A DNA stretch of 64,000 bases from Tissierellia bacterium (GTDB taxonomy: Bacteria > Bacillota > Clostridia > Tissierellales > Peptoniphilaceae). The notes beneath the pieces are model-generated. The model was given only the letters and a program-made list of their open reading frames with translations, was not told the origin of the DNA and did not search any database. Each line of letters opens with the position of its first letter. Positions within the stretch are counted from its first letter, which is position 1. This document shows positions 4,534 to 14,253 of the stretch, piece by piece. The position numbers and the translations under genes were made by a program. Where the stretch lies: assembly GCA_030529425.1 (NCBI GenBank), contig JAUMWX010000003.1, positions 62,001-126,000 on the forward strand. The letters are read 5' to 3'.

Positions 4534-5076
4534 TTATGAATTATTTACATATGAATCAATTATTGAATCTCTGACTTCATTAATGAAAACATTATTATTT
4601 TTAAGTAAATTTAGAATTTTGTAACTCTTTGAATGAAATATTGCTCTCTTTCGATTTTTAATATTAATTTCAAAAATATTTGTTCCCAAGTTTTTAGAAT
4701 GAAGTTTAATAAAATATGATTCTATATTGTCGAAACCTTCCAATTCAATTATCGCTTCAGTTGCAATATCTTTTAAATTATAATAATTTTCCTTATTGTT
4801 TAAGTGAAACTTTGCTCGTTTTTGATTATTAAAATCTTTAGCCTTGTTGTACTCCTCAAGTTCAATCTTTGCTTGAGAATTATAGTAATTATAATTATAC
4901 ATGGCTTTTTCAAAAGAGTCTAAAACCGAAAACGGTTTTAGACTCAATTTTCTAAAAATCATAAAATTTTTGTGATTAAACTCTTTCTTTGTAATTTTAC
5001 CGGCTTCTAACTGATCAATATACAAATTTCTAAGCTCCAAAAACATCAGAAGTCTTTCTTTTTCACTAATGAACAC
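4534..5076 (-). CDS. Uncharacterised partner protein of the P-loop gene
   Basis: I do not recognise this protein with certainty; it may belong to a clostridial domain-of-unknown-function family (DUF6648 comes to mind, unverified). It has about 180 residues, is rich in Lys, Asn, Tyr and Phe, and has no membrane segment or signal. The centre (residues about 60-110) is a charged, probably helical stretch. The GTG start chosen here overlaps the stop of the upstream P-loop gene as TAGTG, with GAAGG about ten bases before. An ATG eleven codons further in is the alternative. The longer open frame to 5130 has no ribosome binding site. The tight overlap suggests coupled production with the ATPase. Confidence 0.65.
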   Translation of the reverse strand: MFISEKERLLMFLELRNLYIDQLEAGKITKKEFNHKNFMIFRKLSLKPFSVLDSFEKAMYNYNYYNSQAKIELEEYNKAKDFNNQKRAKFHLNNKENYYNLKDIATEAIIELEGFDNIESYFIKLHSKNLGTNIFEINIKNRKRAIFHSKSYKILNLLKNNNVFINEVRDSIIDSYVNNS

Positions 5077-5495
5077 TAGCAAAGAACCTTCATTTCCGCT
5101 TTTATTCCTTTTGGCAGCTCGTGTTGACATTTATCAAGTCCGAAATAAATATCAACATTGAATTCGTCTGATAATTTATTTAAATTATCTATTAATTCAA
5201 CAAAAGTATCTTCATTAAAATTAATAATATCATAGATACCATCAAGGTACATTTTTTCAATATCGTAATCTCTTGATGCGATACCCGCTAAGAAACCATA
5301 AAGCATTTTAGAATCTTTTATTCCATATTTCGCCGCATTAATAAGTCTAACTGCATAATCCAATGTAAAAATATGTGAGTCATCAGTATCAATAAAAACG
5401 ATATTACCGTTTCCTTTTGCCTTTTCACTATTTGCTTCTTCGATAAGATGTTTAGTTTTACCACTTCCTGATGGACCTAATATTAAATAAATCAT
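5076..5495 (-). CDS. Small P-loop ATPase-like protein (PilT-like, uncharacterised)
   Basis: A 139-residue protein with a Walker A motif GPSGSGKT at residues 7-14 and a Walker B-like hydrophobic strand ending in Asp, NIVFIDTDD (31-39). It matches a widespread small Firmicute family often labelled as twitching motility protein PilT, although it lacks the PilT fold and no pilus genes are nearby. The conserved RLINAAKYG and the Asp-containing MYLDGIYDI strand fit that family, whose function is unknown to me. It has its own promoter at 5547-5575 and a slightly distant AAAGGCGG. The next gene overlaps its stop codon. Confidence 0.75.
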   Translation of the reverse strand: MIYLILGPSGSGKTKHLIEEANSEKAKGNGNIVFIDTDDSHIFTLDYAVRLINAAKYGIKDSKMLYGFLAGIASRDYDIEKMYLDGIYDIINFNEDTFVELIDNLNKLSDEFNVDIYFGLDKCQHELPKGIKAEMKVLC

Positions 5496-5598: not shown

Positions 5599-6000
5599 TT
5601 ATAACTCACAACCACAGGATTTCGGTTCTTCATCATCTTTGCATCCGCAATCGTCATCAGCATCACATTGATTTTCGTGGTGATGGTGGTGGTGATCATG
5701 TCCACATCCACAGCCTTCTTCTTCATCCAATAGCGAATTGTAAACAGCTACAACTTTCTCAAATTCTTCATCAGTTTCAATCATATTGATTTCTATTTCA
5801 TCATTTTCAAGTTCTTTAAATCTATATAAAAGAACTTCTTTTTCCTCTTCATCATCAATTGGAAGCAAAGCTATATACTCATTTCCTTCTACTTCAAAAT
5901 TTCCCATAACTGCACATTCCACTTCAGTGTTGTCTTCCAACGTTAGAAGAATTGTATCAAATTCTTCATATTCTTCCATTTCTAATTCTTTATCACTCAT
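5599..6000 (-). CDS. DUF1292 protein with Cys/His-rich C-terminal tail
   Basis: A 133-residue acidic protein. Residues about 14-90 match DUF1292: I-L-x-L-E-D-N-T-E-V-E-C, then EYIALLPID and VLLYRF strands. The function of DUF1292 is unknown. The last 37 residues are unlike the domain: seven Cys (97, 99, 112, 118, 120, 129, 131), seven His (101, 103-108) and many Asp/Glu. That composition suggests metal binding, for example zinc or nickel, but this is inference. A start with GAGGAGG is clear. A second DUF1292 gene without the tail sits at 13598-13846. The gene lies between pepD and the P-loop gene; no operon partner explains it. Confidence 0.85.
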   Translation of the reverse strand: MSDKELEMEEYEEFDTILLTLEDNTEVECAVMGNFEVEGNEYIALLPIDDEEEKEVLLYRFKELENDEIEINMIETDEEFEKVVAVYNSLLDEEEGCGCGHDHHHHHHENQCDADDDCGCKDDEEPKSCGCEL

Positions 6001-6054
6001 CGTAATCCTCCTCGGTATTTGTAGTAATTTATACCCTTACTTATTTTTTTGACA

Positions 6055-7497
6055 CTACAACTTTGTCAGTATCCGCTTTATATATTTTACCATAAATTCT
6101 GTCGATTTTATCGATAATTTTTCTTCGGGTGTATGAGCACCTGTTATATTTGGACCGGTGCTGATCATTTTGATATTTGGATACTTCTTGCTCAATATTC
6201 CGGTTTCCAAGCCTGCATGTATGGTGCTTACTATAACTTCTTCACCTCTTAACTCTTTATATACGCTTTTAGCCGTATTCAAAAGTTCCGACTGAAAGTC
6301 AGGTTCCCACATTGGATATCCTTCACTGAAAACTATTTTTGCACTGGTTATAGAGGCAATATCCTCAATAGTATTTTTTAGAACATCCATATCATTTTGC
6401 TTGGAGCTTCTAATTGATGTCAAAATATCAATTTTATCGTCACTAAATTTTACGATTGCAAGATTATTTGACGATTGTACTAAATCTCCATTTTCATCCA
6501 TAGTATTTATACCATGTGGAAATAGCTGTATTAATCTTGAAAAATTAGACAATGTCTGTCTTGTCAAATACGAACCTTCTCCCTCATATTCTTTGAATCC
6601 GAAAGTCATATCAGCTTCACGCTTAAGAAAAATTTCCTTTATCTCATTAACTATATTGTAGAAATCGGTTTTAAAATCATCAAATAGATTTTCTTCAACT
6701 CCAATAATAGCATAAGCCTTTACAGGTATTGCATTATGCTTTGATCCCCCTTCAAATATTTCAAGGTGTAAATCATATTTTTGTTTTAATTTCATAATTA
6801 CTTCATTTAAAACTTTTACAGAATTTAAATGCGCTTCTCCAATGGTAAGACCGGAGTGTCCGCCTTTCAGTCCTGATACCTCTATTTTACAGTTTTTTAA
6901 ATTATCGATTGTTTCAACTTCACGCTCAATTGTAAGTGTTGCGTTTACACCGCCTGCACAACCAACAATTATGACATTGTCATCTTCAGTATCAATATTA
7001 ATTAATCTTTTACCTGTCAACCAGTTTTCGGACAAACCAATAGCTCCGTCCATACCTGTTTCTTCAGTTGCTGTAAAAATGGCTTCTATACTTGGATGAC
7101 TTAAAGTTTTATCTTCAAGTATATCCATAATTATTGCAACTCCGATTCCGTCATCAGCCCCAAGTGTGGTTTTGTCAGCTTTGATAAAATCGCCATTTAC
7201 TTTTGTTACTATAGGATCTTTGCAGAAATCATGGTCCGAATCTTCCGTTTTTTCACAGACCATGTCGGTATGAGCTTGAAGTACAACTGTTTCACTATCT
7301 TCGTAACCTTCCGTAGCGGGCTTTAGAATTAATACATTGTTATACTTATCTTTTTTTACATCATATCCTAAATTTTTTCCAAATTCATATATGAAATTAG
7401 CGATGTTTTCCTCATTTCCCGAACATCTGGGAATTCTTGAAATTTTATCAAAGTTTCTAAATACCCCGGATGCAACAGAATCTTTAATGTTTATCAT
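6055..7497 (-). CDS. pepD: Aminoacyl-histidine dipeptidase, M20 family (PepD)
   Basis: A 480-residue metallopeptidase, full length for PepD. Metal-site motifs are QAHTDMV with His76 and Asp78, GADDGIG with Asp115, and ATEETGMDGA with the general-base Glu145 and metal ligand Glu146. A conserved His lies in TGAHTPEE near the C-terminus. PepD hydrolyses Xaa-His and other dipeptides, using two zinc ions, and suits an amino-acid-fermenting organism. It has AGAGGA before the ATG and is the last gene of the long alaS run, eight bases after ppiC. Confidence 0.93.
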   Translation of the reverse strand: MINIKDSVASGVFRNFDKISRIPRCSGNEENIANFIYEFGKNLGYDVKKDKYNNVLILKPATEGYEDSETVVLQAHTDMVCEKTEDSDHDFCKDPIVTKVNGDFIKADKTTLGADDGIGVAIIMDILEDKTLSHPSIEAIFTATEETGMDGAIGLSENWLTGKRLINIDTEDDNVIIVGCAGGVNATLTIEREVETIDNLKNCKIEVSGLKGGHSGLTIGEAHLNSVKVLNEVIMKLKQKYDLHLEIFEGGSKHNAIPVKAYAIIGVEENLFDDFKTDFYNIVNEIKEIFLKREADMTFGFKEYEGEGSYLTRQTLSNFSRLIQLFPHGINTMDENGDLVQSSNNLAIVKFSDDKIDILTSIRSSKQNDMDVLKNTIEDIASITSAKIVFSEGYPMWEPDFQSELLNTAKSVYKELRGEEVIVSTIHAGLETGILSKKYPNIKMISTGPNITGAHTPEEKLSIKSTEFMVKYIKRILTKL

Positions 7498-7505
7498 AAA
7501 ATCCT

Positions 7506-8252
7506 CTAGATATTACTTTCTATTTTGTATTTCTTTTGCAGTTCACTTGTCTTTTGGACATAGGCTTCCTGTTGTTTTTTACCAAGTAAAATATTCTTAA
7601 TGTCGTTCTTGTTTGATGAATAATCATCATCTCTTGCTAAATTCTTTTCAACCAACTTGATAATATGATAACCGAATTGTGTTTTAACAGGATATGATAC
7701 TTCACCTATTTCTAATTCTTCACATGATTTTTCAAACTCAGGAACCATTTGTCCTGTTGAAAATAAACCCAAGTCTCCGCCCGACTGAGATGAAGGGCAT
7801 GTCGAATTGGCTTTTGCCAGTTCTTCAAAACTTTCCTCATTATTGGAAATTTTTTCTCTGATTTGCAAAGCTTTTTCTTCATTGTCAATCAGTATATGGC
7901 TGGCTCTAAAAGTGTGAATCTTTTTAAATCTGCTTTTATTGTTTTCATAATATTCTTTAATTTCATCTTCTGATACTTCAACTTCATCCAATACTTTTTT
8001 CATGGCGTATTGTCTTAGAATTTGTTCTTTAGCCACTTCAAGTTCTTTCTTATACTCTTCGTCCTGATCCAAGCCACTTTCTTTAGCATCGATGTAGATT
8101 AAATGTTGATTCATCATCTCGTTTGCTATCTGTTTTTTTCCCTCTTCATTATTGAATTGAGCACCTTCTTGACCCATAGTTATAATGAATCTTTGAACAT
8201 CATTTTCAGTTACTTCAAAATCTTGAAATTTTAATAAAACTTTATTTTCCAA
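7506..8252 (-). CDS. Parvulin-type peptidyl-prolyl isomerase, cytoplasmic
   Basis: A 248-residue protein with an N-terminal SurA-like helical part (residues 1-110) and a parvulin rotamase domain at about 112-205, with HTFRASHILI, SGGDLGLFSTGQMVPEFE and TQFGYHIIKL. The family helps folding by isomerising Xaa-Pro bonds. Unlike PrsA it has no signal peptide or lipobox, so it should act in the cytoplasm. The start is TTG at 8252 with AAGGAG upstream, overlapping cvfB by 11 bases. Confidence 0.88.
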   Translation of the reverse strand: MENKVLLKFQDFEVTENDVQRFIITMGQEGAQFNNEEGKKQIANEMMNQHLIYIDAKESGLDQDEEYKKELEVAKEQILRQYAMKKVLDEVEVSEDEIKEYYENNKSRFKKIHTFRASHILIDNEEKALQIREKISNNEESFEELAKANSTCPSSQSGGDLGLFSTGQMVPEFEKSCEELEIGEVSYPVKTQFGYHIIKLVEKNLARDDDYSSNKNDIKNILLGKKQQEAYVQKTSELQKKYKIESNI

Positions 8253-11165: not shown

Positions 11166-11821
11166 TTATCCTCCTTATATGATATCGCAAGTCCATCTCC
11201 AATCGGAAGTATTGATGTATGGATATCATCAGAATTTAGTAATAAATCTAAATATTTTCTTATTCTTTTTACAATTGTTTTATTTCTTTTAGTAACTAGG
11301 TTTTCATCGGCAATCATCCCTTTGTACAAAATATTATCAGATAATATTATTGCTTTTTCGCTTAAAATAGGAAGAACAAGATTAAGGTATTGAATATACT
11401 GTCCTTTTGCGGCATCTATAAACACCATATCATAATCTTTACCATCCAATTTTTTCATTGTTTCTAAAGCATCACCCAAAACAACCTTTATTTTATTTTC
11501 AAAGCCGTACTTTTGGATATTATTTTGGGCAATATTATACATATCTTCATTTATTTCTAATGTGGTAATATCGGCGTCATCATCCGTATATTTTGCAAAT
11601 AAGATTGAAGAAAAACCTATTGCCGTACCGATTTCTAAAATCTTCTTAGGCTTGTAGATTCTGATTATTGTTTTGATAAACTCCTGCACATCTCTACGAA
11701 TTATCGGAATATTTTTTTCTTCTCCATAATCTCTAAGCTCTTCAATGAATTTTGACTTGCCATTAGATTTATATAAGCCATCAATATACTCTGTTACTAT
11801 TTCATTTCCAATATTATTCAT
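11162..11821 (-). CDS. trmR: tRNA 5-hydroxyuridine O-methyltransferase (TrmR-like)
   Basis: A 219-residue SAM-dependent O-methyltransferase of the YrrM/COMT type. Motif I is ILEIGTAIGFSSILFA, and DMVFIDAAKGQYIQYLN carries the metal-ligand Asp; ILSDNILYKG follows. TrmR methylates 5-hydroxyuridine 34 to 5-methoxyuridine, which widens wobble reading. Catechol O-methyltransferases share the fold, but the neighbour trhP makes the tRNA role likely. Its ATG lies inside the end of rnj (eight-base overlap), and it overlaps trhP by four. Confidence 0.88.
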   Translation of the reverse strand: MNNIGNEIVTEYIDGLYKSNGKSKFIEELRDYGEEKNIPIIRRDVQEFIKTIIRIYKPKKILEIGTAIGFSSILFAKYTDDDADITTLEINEDMYNIAQNNIQKYGFENKIKVVLGDALETMKKLDGKDYDMVFIDAAKGQYIQYLNLVLPILSEKAIILSDNILYKGMIADENLVTKRNKTIVKRIRKYLDLLLNSDDIHTSILPIGDGLAISYKEDK

Positions 11822-13586
11822 CTGTTTCCACTTCCATGATTATAGGTAAAATCATAGGATCCCTTTTGATTTCTGAATAAACAAAGGATTTAAGCTTATC
11901 TTTAACCATGTACTTCATAAAGTTAATGTCGCTGATTTTTTTGTTGTTAATCTCTCTCTTAGCTGAGTCAATTACTTTTACAGCCCCATCAATCAGATCT
12001 GAAGAATCTTTTACATAAACAAATCCTCTGCTCATTATCTGAGGTTTTCCTACTATTTGTTTTTTGTTCTTATCATAGTTCAGTACAACGGTAATCAATC
12101 CTTCTTCAGATAAGTGTTTTCTGTCTCTCAGTACGACATTGCCTACATCTCCAATTCCTAAACCGTCTACAAGAACCTTTCCTGCCTGAACTTCACCGGC
12201 AATTTTTGCACTGTTTTTTTCAAATTCAAAAACTGTACCATTTTTACCGATAAAAACATTATCCGGGTCAATTCCTATAGAAACCGCAAGTTCCTTATGC
12301 ATTTTAAGATGTCTTATTTCACCGTGTACAGGTACGAAGTATTTAGGTCTGACAAGTGAAAGCATCAATTTAAGTTCTTCCTGCGAGGCATGCCCGGATA
12401 CATGAACTTCAGCTAATTTTGAATACACAACATTACATCCCAATTCGGTTAAATTATTTATTACTCCACCCATAGAATCCTCATTTCCGGGAATCGGTGT
12501 TGCTGAGATAATAACAGTATCATTCGGCATAAGCTTAACTTTTCTGTGCTCGCTCTTTGAAAGTCTTGTCAATGCTGACATCGGTTCACCTTGACTACCG
12601 GTGGTCAGTAAAACTATTTCATTGTTTTCAAAACTGTCTATATTGTTAATGTTCTGCAATGTATCCTTTTTAATTTTAAGGTAACCCAAATCAATTGCTA
12701 TCTTAACATTTTTTTCCATGGACCTTCCGCTTATAAATAGCTTTTTACCATAGTACTCCGTCGCATCTATAACTTGCTGAACCCTGTGTAAATTCGAAGC
12801 GAATGTTGCAACGGCAATTCTTTCTTCCGCAGTTGCAAAAACTTGTTTGAAAGTTTCCCTAACGGATAATTCACTCATGGTGTAACCGGGTTTTTCTACA
12901 TTTGTACTGTCGGAAAGCAGTACAAGCACTCCTTCTCTTCCAAGCTGTCCAAATCTTTGCAAATCCATATATATTCCGTCTATAGGCGTAAAATCAACTT
13001 TAAAATCTCCGGTGAACAAGGCAACTCCTATAGGTGTGTGAATCGCAATTGCACATGCGTCAGGAATTGAATGGTTTACACTTATAAATTCAGCCTTAAA
13101 ATCTCCAAGTGTTATTGTTTGTCCCGGAGTAATAGTTTTCAGAACCGAAGTATCCAAATTATGTTCTTTAAGCTTAAGTTCAATCAAACCAAGGGTAAGT
13201 CTTGTGGAATAAACTCTGGTAGTTATTTTTTTTAGAAAATACGGAACGGCTCCTATGTGATCCTCGTGTCCGTGTGTTACCAAAAGTCCCTTAATTTTAT
13301 GCTTGTTTTGCTCTAAATAACTGAAATCAGGAATTACTATGTCAACTCCCAACATAGTTTCATCCGGAAAAGTAAGACCTGCATCAATAATCAATATTTG
13401 ATCATTGTATTCTATAGCAGTCATATTTTTACCTATTTCTCCTACTCCTCCCAACGGTATAATTCTCAGTTTTCCATTAACCTTTTTCTTCTTTTTCTGC
13501 GTTGCCCTGGTTTTTGGTTTCAGGACGCTTACAGTATTGTTTTTAATTTTTTTGCTCTGTATTGTTTTTGTTTCTTTATTTTTCAT
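11814..13586 (-). CDS. rnj: Ribonuclease J
   Basis: A 590-residue metallo-beta-lactamase/beta-CASP RNase. The zinc-binding THGHEDHIGA spans residues 104-113; VNHSIPDA, LFTGDFKVD and the C-terminal VHGEIRHL are further family motifs. RNase J degrades and matures RNA with 5' exo- and endonuclease activity and starts the degradosome in Firmicutes. Residues 1-38 are an unusually basic, Lys-rich extension before GKLRIIPLGGVGEIGKNM, as in several clostridia, perhaps for RNA contact. AAAGGAAG precedes the ATG. In Bacillus the matching operon position holds mltG. Confidence 0.95.
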   Translation of the reverse strand: MKNKETKTIQSKKIKNNTVSVLKPKTRATQKKKKKVNGKLRIIPLGGVGEIGKNMTAIEYNDQILIIDAGLTFPDETMLGVDIVIPDFSYLEQNKHKIKGLLVTHGHEDHIGAVPYFLKKITTRVYSTRLTLGLIELKLKEHNLDTSVLKTITPGQTITLGDFKAEFISVNHSIPDACAIAIHTPIGVALFTGDFKVDFTPIDGIYMDLQRFGQLGREGVLVLLSDSTNVEKPGYTMSELSVRETFKQVFATAEERIAVATFASNLHRVQQVIDATEYYGKKLFISGRSMEKNVKIAIDLGYLKIKKDTLQNINNIDSFENNEIVLLTTGSQGEPMSALTRLSKSEHRKVKLMPNDTVIISATPIPGNEDSMGGVINNLTELGCNVVYSKLAEVHVSGHASQEELKLMLSLVRPKYFVPVHGEIRHLKMHKELAVSIGIDPDNVFIGKNGTVFEFEKNSAKIAGEVQAGKVLVDGLGIGDVGNVVLRDRKHLSEEGLITVVLNYDKNKKQIVGKPQIMSRGFVYVKDSSDLIDGAVKVIDSAKREINNKKISDINFMKYMVKDKLKSFVYSEIKRDPMILPIIMEVETDE

Positions 13587-13597
13587 TATCTTCCTTT

Positions 13598-13846
13598 CTA
13601 TTGCTCGTCAACATTTTCATCCAACAAATCAATATAGATAGAAAGTACTTCATCTAAAACCTTCTTATTGTCTATGGTCTTGAATATAGCTTCATCACCT
13701 TCAAACTCTATTTCCATTATATAAACTTGTTCATCCTCAGTATTTAACAGTGCGGCATATTCTTTGTCATCGACCCCAAATGTATCCAATAATTGAAAGC
13801 TTACTTCACGATCTCCATCGTATAATACAATATTTTCCATAATCAC
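13598..13846 (-). CDS. DUF1292 family protein (YrzB-like)
   Basis: An 82-residue acidic protein consisting of the DUF1292 domain alone: IVLYDGDREVSFQLL, then EYAALLNTED and VYIMEIEF. The function is unknown, but the gene is conserved next to ruvX and ireB in Firmicutes, as here. A GTG start at 13846 overlaps the ruvX stop as GTGA; an ATG two codons later (13840) is as likely, since ribosome binding sites are weak for both. The tail found on the paralogue at 5599 is absent. Confidence 0.88.
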   Translation of the reverse strand: MIMENIVLYDGDREVSFQLLDTFGVDDKEYAALLNTEDEQVYIMEIEFEGDEAIFKTIDNKKVLDEVLSIYIDLLDENVDEQ

Positions 13847-14253
13847 TTTGCATCTAAATAACTTTGCAATATAAATGTTGCAGCAATTTTATCTACATGT
13901 TCCTTTCTTTTTTCTCTTCTAACTTTAGATTCTATTAAAACTCTCTCCGCAGATACAGTACTTAATCTCTCGTCTACATACTCAATTTCAATATCCGTCT
14001 CTTTTTTTAATAAATCGACGAAACTCATTACTCTTTGAGCGGAGGGACCAATAGTTTTATTCATATTATAAGGCATCCCTACAATAATTTTAGTAACGCT
14101 GTTTTCCTTAATTACTCTGACAATTTCGTTTATATCATCCTTAGAGTTTGTCCTTTTTACAGTTTTCAATCCGTTAGCAAACATCAAGAGCGGGTCGCTT
14201 ATAGATATTCCTATCGTCTTTGTTCCAATGTCTAAACCAATGTATCTTTCCAT
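13843..14253 (-). CDS. ruvX: Holliday junction resolvase-like / pre-16S rRNA nuclease YqgF
   Basis: A 136-residue RNase H-like nuclease. It begins YIGLDIGTKTIGISISDP with the first catalytic Asp (residue 8), then KIIVGMPYNMNKTIGP and YVDERLSTVSAERVL with the second acidic site, and the final DKIAATFILQSYL with the third. YqgF matures the 5' end of 16S rRNA in Escherichia coli; the resolvase label is older. It sits in the conserved ireB-ruvX-DUF1292 order. The ATG is preceded by GGAGGAT. Confidence 0.93.
   Translation of the reverse strand: MERYIGLDIGTKTIGISISDPLLMFANGLKTVKRTNSKDDINEIVRVIKENSVTKIIVGMPYNMNKTIGPSAQRVMSFVDLLKKETDIEIEYVDERLSTVSAERVLIESKVRREKRKEHVDKIAATFILQSYLDAK

Follow-up and report, generated by a model that had tools for sequence, protein, structure and literature searches.

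A selected, probably metal-binding Cys/His arm on DUF1292 proteins, placed at either end of a small predicted barrel

The window analyzed here, a 64,000-nucleotide stretch of DNA from a Tissierellia bacterium, encodes a small DUF1292 protein whose C-terminal end is crowded with cysteines and histidines. What does such an arm do, and how does it relate to the domain that carries it? The sequence-only reading had taken it for a metal-sequestering or metallochaperone tail (zinc, nickel or copper) added to a domain of unknown role. The gene, its parts and the second DUF1292 gene of the window are as follows.

5599..6000, minus strand: DUF1292 gene with a C-terminal Cys/His arm, 133 residues from ATG (open reading frame; Pfam PF06949, E 1.2e-17, residues 22-92)
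6007..6012, minus strand: ribosome-binding site AGGAGG of this gene, read upstream of the ATG
5725..5937, minus strand: DUF1292 domain, covering residues 22-92, with five strands and a helix at its C-terminal end (Pfam; AlphaFold2 model)
5914..5916, minus strand: codon of Cys 29, the domain cysteine typical of the arm-bearing clade (at least 90% in alignment A1)
5602..5712, minus strand: Cys/His arm, the last 37 residues, with seven Cys and seven His, predicted to be disordered (sequence; AlphaFold2)
13598..13846, minus strand: bare DUF1292 paralogue lacking the arm, flanked by ruvX and the RNase J gene (open reading frame, Pfam, tree)

The open reading frame at 5599-6000 is real. The plus-strand reading of this interval runs into stops, the DUF1292 gene lies on the minus strand, and the ribosome-binding site ahead of its ATG (GAGGAGG) was judged good. 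DUF1292 (PF06949) is the sole Pfam match of the 133-residue protein at E 0.01, scoring 64.9 bits against a curated cut-off of 24. The arm is composed of seven cysteines (three CGC pairs and one more) and seven histidines, six of them consecutive, separated by acidic spacers, just as first described. Among 37-residue stretches ranked by Cys plus His across 287 open reading frames, called crudely as longest frames, it stands at the top with 14, followed by stretches with 10 and 7. The binomial expectation for its Cys plus His count over all such stretches is ~1e-9, the test covering those 287 frames in 304 kb (the window and a further 240 kb) of the 1.565-Mb genome. A DNA pattern for CGCGHDH has one occurrence genome-wide with up to two mismatches, as does its backwards control. 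The paralogue at 13598-13846 is indeed the bare domain, with 80 residues from its ATG, neither a cysteine nor a histidine, and a DUF1292 match at E 1.9e-9. These two are the only DUF1292 genes found in the genome.

The AlphaFold2 model (70 sequences) contains strands at residues 16-20, 26-37, 40-47, 57-63 and 69-72, followed by a helix at 77-94. Mean pLDDT in blocks of the domain is 84-93 (residues 21-90) and averages about 50 in the arm. The domain is thus predicted to be a small β-barrel with a helix, and the arm to be disordered. The best of the listed VIA matches is an SH3-type protein (Z 4.8, 44 residues, 2.2 Å rmsd), with Tudor and chromo domains next; these matches are too weak to assign the fold, and a Z below 8 may reflect merely a common arrangement. 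The best Foldseek match has E 0.11, short of the 0.001 threshold. Sequence searches against solved structures returned only weak matches, and the majority stop at the histidine stretch, as His-tagged constructs would.

DUF1292 is nearly ubiquitous in the family (129 of 130 genomes), and most genomes of an order sample (148 of 150, with 31 already counted in the family) and of a class sample (179 of 196) have it as well. We scored 168 DUF1292 genes from these samples, leaving out the duplicate rows L001, L002, L032, L036 and L050, and called a cluster where at least three Cys and His lie outside the core. The cluster is N-terminal in 92 genes, C-terminal in 9 and absent from 67, although one of these absences (L048, which begins at a contig edge) is perhaps false. 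The 67 genes lacking it are mostly bare copies or single copies at the class level. Among family genes of at least 90 residues (67 genes, 34 genera), 52 have the cluster at the N terminus, 8 at the C terminus and 7 not at all. Twenty extra family loci outside this tally comprise 14 long copies (10 N-terminal, 1 C-terminal, 3 with no cluster) and 6 bare ones. In one gene of genus g31 (L269, genome G093), the C-terminal arm has histidines only and the domain cysteine has been lost. A further 80 loci picked for their likeness to the arm clade yielded 79 genes (none from L219), 36 with an N-terminal cluster and 43 with none. A single-protein search for close relatives among genome contigs found none that encodes one. 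The long copies L060, L061 and L063 of genus g3 have an N-terminal extension that lacks a cluster and holds just an HGH-type motif.

On a tree of the domain, 111 rows including the long gene of the window form a clade (SH-aLRT 97) made up of 87 genes with the cluster at the N terminus, 9 with it at the C terminus and 15 with none. The other 57 rows (SH-aLRT 97), among them the bare paralogue of the window, divide into 52 with none and 5 N-terminal. The tree is built on 82 columns, excluding that of Cys 29, and with so few columns 73 of its 162 inner branches are open. Taken as it stands, it places most arm-bearing genes in a distinct paralogue clade that extends through the order. The picture of a domain that has gained a tail is therefore misleading, because such clusters are common to this paralogue clade order-wide and mostly N-terminal, the C-terminal position seen here being the exception.

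Five clusters fall outside the 111-row clade (L159, L164, L166 and L155/L156), and those of L159 and L166 occupy the place beside ruvX that otherwise belongs to the bare copy; arms therefore seem to have arisen elsewhere too. L166 (2830-3672) has a tandem DUF1292 pair beside ruvX, in which the first gene bears a Cys/His cluster at its N terminus and the second is bare. In six order-level loci (L040, L043, L047, L054, L055 and L056), a bare DUF1292 gene sits between ruvX and a FUR-family gene, with RNase J following. The FUR gene is absent from the corresponding spot in the window (11814-14253), and the single FUR match of the genome lies on another contig.

Of the 101 cluster-bearing genes, 86 have a cysteine of the Cys 29 type, the long gene of the window included, against 14 of the 67 others. 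We considered Cys 29 as a partner of the arm and rejected it, as an ancestry-aware pairwise test on 5 and 4 independent pairs gave no trend. The pattern is explained by shared ancestry and is not counted as evidence of a joint site.

Of the nine C-terminal rows, one is the window's, three belong to genus g8, four to genus g31 and one (L109) to another family. The nearest relative of the window's long gene, L015, shares 58% domain identity with it and bears its cluster, of CGCGHDHEHKHEHKHE-like repeats, at the N terminus. A tree of the neighboring PepD protein (56 rows, 484 columns) is better resolved and joins the window, g8 and L015 in one clade (support 98), placing g31 among N-terminal genera (support 99). 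C-terminal placement requires four changes on the domain tree and three on the PepD tree, and the starred branches force at least two on each. Forcing all C-terminal rows into one clade is rejected for PepD (p-AU 2.3e-41). Going by these trees, C-terminal placement is a state that arose at least twice. The spread of the N-terminal arm suggests that it is the older form; the counts of changes themselves give no direction. Relatives usually bear a similar arm, in most cases at the opposite terminus, which points to a role for the arm as such and not just for where it sits. In this view the change of ends illustrates a disordered segment retained for its content rather than its position.

Across 185 aligned pairs of tails within genera, Cys and His are retained at 88% of positions, Asp and Glu at 59% and other residues at 54%. 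Since aligners favor Cys and His, the comparison was repeated free of alignment on 20 within-genus pairs of equal length, where retention was 94%, 79% and 73%, respectively, with Cys/His leading in five of five genera; pairs inside one genus are not independent. In these 20 pairs the synonymous share of changes is 0.79 for Cys/His, 0.32 for Asp/Glu and 0.31 for the rest. Glycine retention in the tails is 84%, as CGC spacing would require. The test covers genera with several genomes and so excludes the window's own arm, whose genus is represented by a single genome. Because Cys and His are kept within genera while the spacers drift, the sequences indicate that the arm is under purifying selection as a set of ligands. 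Among orthologues, the cluster is kept and its positions are kept within genera, while the exact positions differ between genera.

These data bear on an alternative, namely that CGC and HDH repeats grow and shrink by low-complexity drift and have no role. Arm length and repeat number do vary widely (L015 versus L027), and some lineages have no cluster, both of which drift would produce. However, Cys and His codons are kept above every other class of tail residue in a setting where synonymous change is common, and we regard drift as highly improbable.

To judge by its residues and their retention, the arm probably binds metal. Zinc is the likeliest. The ligands are a mixture of Cys and His in most genes, Cys only (CGCGCGC) in L013 and L016, and His only in L027; by genus, g34 has Cys only and g2 His only. 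Zinc is favored because the ligand sets vary in this way among genera, unlike what general coordination chemistry would lead one to expect of a metal with a strict taste. The sequence gives the proposal of a metal-binding tail good support, since selection retains the Cys and His and lets the spacers change; nickel, one of the metals proposed, is disfavored by hydrogenase and urease profiles.

A nickel store or nickel chaperone, resembling the tails of SlyD, HypB or UreE, would account for the composition of the arm, since SlyD has an unstructured tail of similar make-up, with Cys, His, Asp and Glu (PMC7055735). The expected nickel enzymes, however, are largely missing. No [NiFe]-hydrogenase scores over cut-off in the 130 family genomes, and a strong urease match (E ~1e-54) occurs in only five, all of genus g3; the three long g3 copies examined, which come from other genomes than the urease-bearing ones, lack the cluster. 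The window's own genome has neither urease nor a CODH/hybrid-cluster match. PF03063 matches in 101 of the 130 genomes; as it covers hybrid cluster protein besides CODH, and as most of these proteins have ~540 residues, the matches by themselves say little about CODH. A nickel role is unsupported by the hydrogenase, urease and CODH profiles together, and we consider it very unlikely.

The neighboring genes were compared as well. Those flanking the gene in the window are listed here, with their frequency among 116 loci where it was counted.

6055..7497, minus strand: M20 dipeptidase gene pepD, directly upstream, 55 bases off (Pfam M20; NCBIfam TIGR01893 over cut-off)
7506..8252, minus strand: PpiC-type peptidyl-prolyl isomerase, upstream beyond pepD in one gene run with it (Pfam Rotamase; 33/116 loci)
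5076..5495, minus strand: P-loop ATPase-like gene, downstream, a conserved neighbor (67/116 loci)
4534..5130, minus strand: DUF6648 gene, downstream, a conserved neighbor (Pfam E 2.2e-40; 41/116 loci)

The P-loop and DUF6648 genes overlap in the window and lie side by side in many relatives. Between the arm gene and its P-loop neighbor, at 5575-5547, lies a promoter-like site that is a consensus match only. Of the 116 loci, a set that counts four genomes twice, 59 have M20 pepD immediately upstream in the same orientation, and 16 have an M18 aminopeptidase, its identity checked on three members, immediately downstream; both occur in 10 genomes. M20 peptidases are zinc enzymes, and M18 is one according to its Pfam title. 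Further neighbors include the tRNA-modifying MnmL/YtqA radical SAM protein (54 loci, one member checked), HAD proteins (26 loci), and RelA/SpoT-like and CvfB genes. No metal transporter was recognized among the 30 largest neighbor clusters, mostly judged by eye, and no metal sensor adjoins the arm gene. Looking for metal genes beside the gene in relatives, as had been proposed, thus turned up zinc peptidases and housekeeping genes instead.

The peptidase association needs to be read with care. Cluster-less copies still lie beside pepD (L060, L061 and L063 of genus g3, as well as L090, L091 and L093), so the link of the zinc peptidases is to the gene and not to the arm. Outside the order, the arm-bearing genes of Anaerotignaceae and most Lachnospiraceae have no zinc peptidase neighbors. 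The strongest version of a delivery role, in which the clade is a family of nucleotide-free zinc carriers whose barrel docks on M20 PepD or M18 aminopeptidase and whose disordered arm hands over the metal from either end, is one that we hold to be unlikely. If it were true, the repeated change of ends would mean that tethering alone has been kept by evolution. Lineages of the clade that lack the cluster evidently live without it, which counts against any buffer or carrier, including the broader reading preferred below.

That same absence would suit a metallothionein-like protein for detoxification, or a plain sink for excess zinc, cadmium or copper that has no client, as would an arm rich in ligands whose positions are free and which serves at either end. 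Against this, the gene sits within a housekeeping run and not beside metal resistance genes, and its presence throughout the order exceeds what one would expect of a resistance trait; a sink of this kind seems to us improbable.

The neighborhood also admits a zinc-sensing regulator, in which the arm would gauge free metal and alter the binding of the domain to RNA, the ribosome or RNA polymerase, reporting on zinc rather than delivering it. RelA/SpoT-like, CvfB and MnmL genes among the neighbors would fit such a role, as would the weak likeness of the domain to SH3/Tudor-type small barrels (VIA Z 4.8). That likeness falls short of a Z of 8, however, and finds no Foldseek counterpart at E 0.001 or better, and we think a regulator improbable.

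The reading we prefer, to which we give an even chance, is that the protein is a small cytosolic buffer or carrier of metal, most likely zinc, consisting of an arm on a small barrel domain. The compact DUF1292 domain, which we infer to recognize a partner, would present the flexible, acidic Cys/His arm. The arm would take up two or three ions, zinc being the likeliest, and release them by ligand exchange, either to apo-proteins in its vicinity or into the pool again. The best candidate clients would be the products of the adjacent zinc peptidase genes (M20 and, in relatives, M18 as well), which is the weak step of the scheme.

In the literature, as far as the retrieved passages go, DUF1292 is named in tables, lists or as a map landmark and is given no function. 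Under UPF0473, YrzB and PF06949, nothing on function turned up beyond one table label, in which YrzB is entered as a putative anti-sigma factor (PMC3814617). The term DUF1292 was absent among the matches listed for DUF1292 with metal, and nothing was found on Peptoniphilus with a zinc metallochaperone.

Compared with known systems, the closest in domain is the bare DUF1292/UPF0473/YrzB protein (PF06949), of which the window has one copy in the ruvX place. It has the same domain; the bare copies form a separate clade, have no cluster and mostly lack the domain cysteine. Bacterial metallothioneins are short Cys/His-rich metal-binding stretches, from which the present protein differs in that its arm is attached to a folded, conserved domain. 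ZNG1/COG0523 proteins are zinc transferases that are driven by GTP and supply methionine aminopeptidase. Provision of a cytosolic peptidase with zinc is a possible common logic, although they belong to another family and no GTPase domain is found here. Closest in design is SlyD, likewise a folded domain with a disordered, ligand-rich tail that varies among species; the Helicobacter pylori protein binds nickel or zinc (PMC7055735). The arm in the window shares the disordered, Cys/His/Asp/Glu-rich character of that tail (composition; pLDDT about 50). SlyD differs in its FKBP isomerase domain, which the window protein lacks; the clade of the latter has the arm at either end, and the 130 family genomes offer no [NiFe]-hydrogenase over cut-off to serve. 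HypB and UreE are metal chaperones that also carry ligand-rich extensions (PMC7055735); they differ in having their own GTPase or UreE domain, absent here, and their nickel clients are mostly absent as well. What appears to be new, then, is a putative metal-binding arm, appended on a known principle, on a domain for which no such arm was known, and such a selected arm in one clade gives a concrete handle on the role of the DUF1292 domain.
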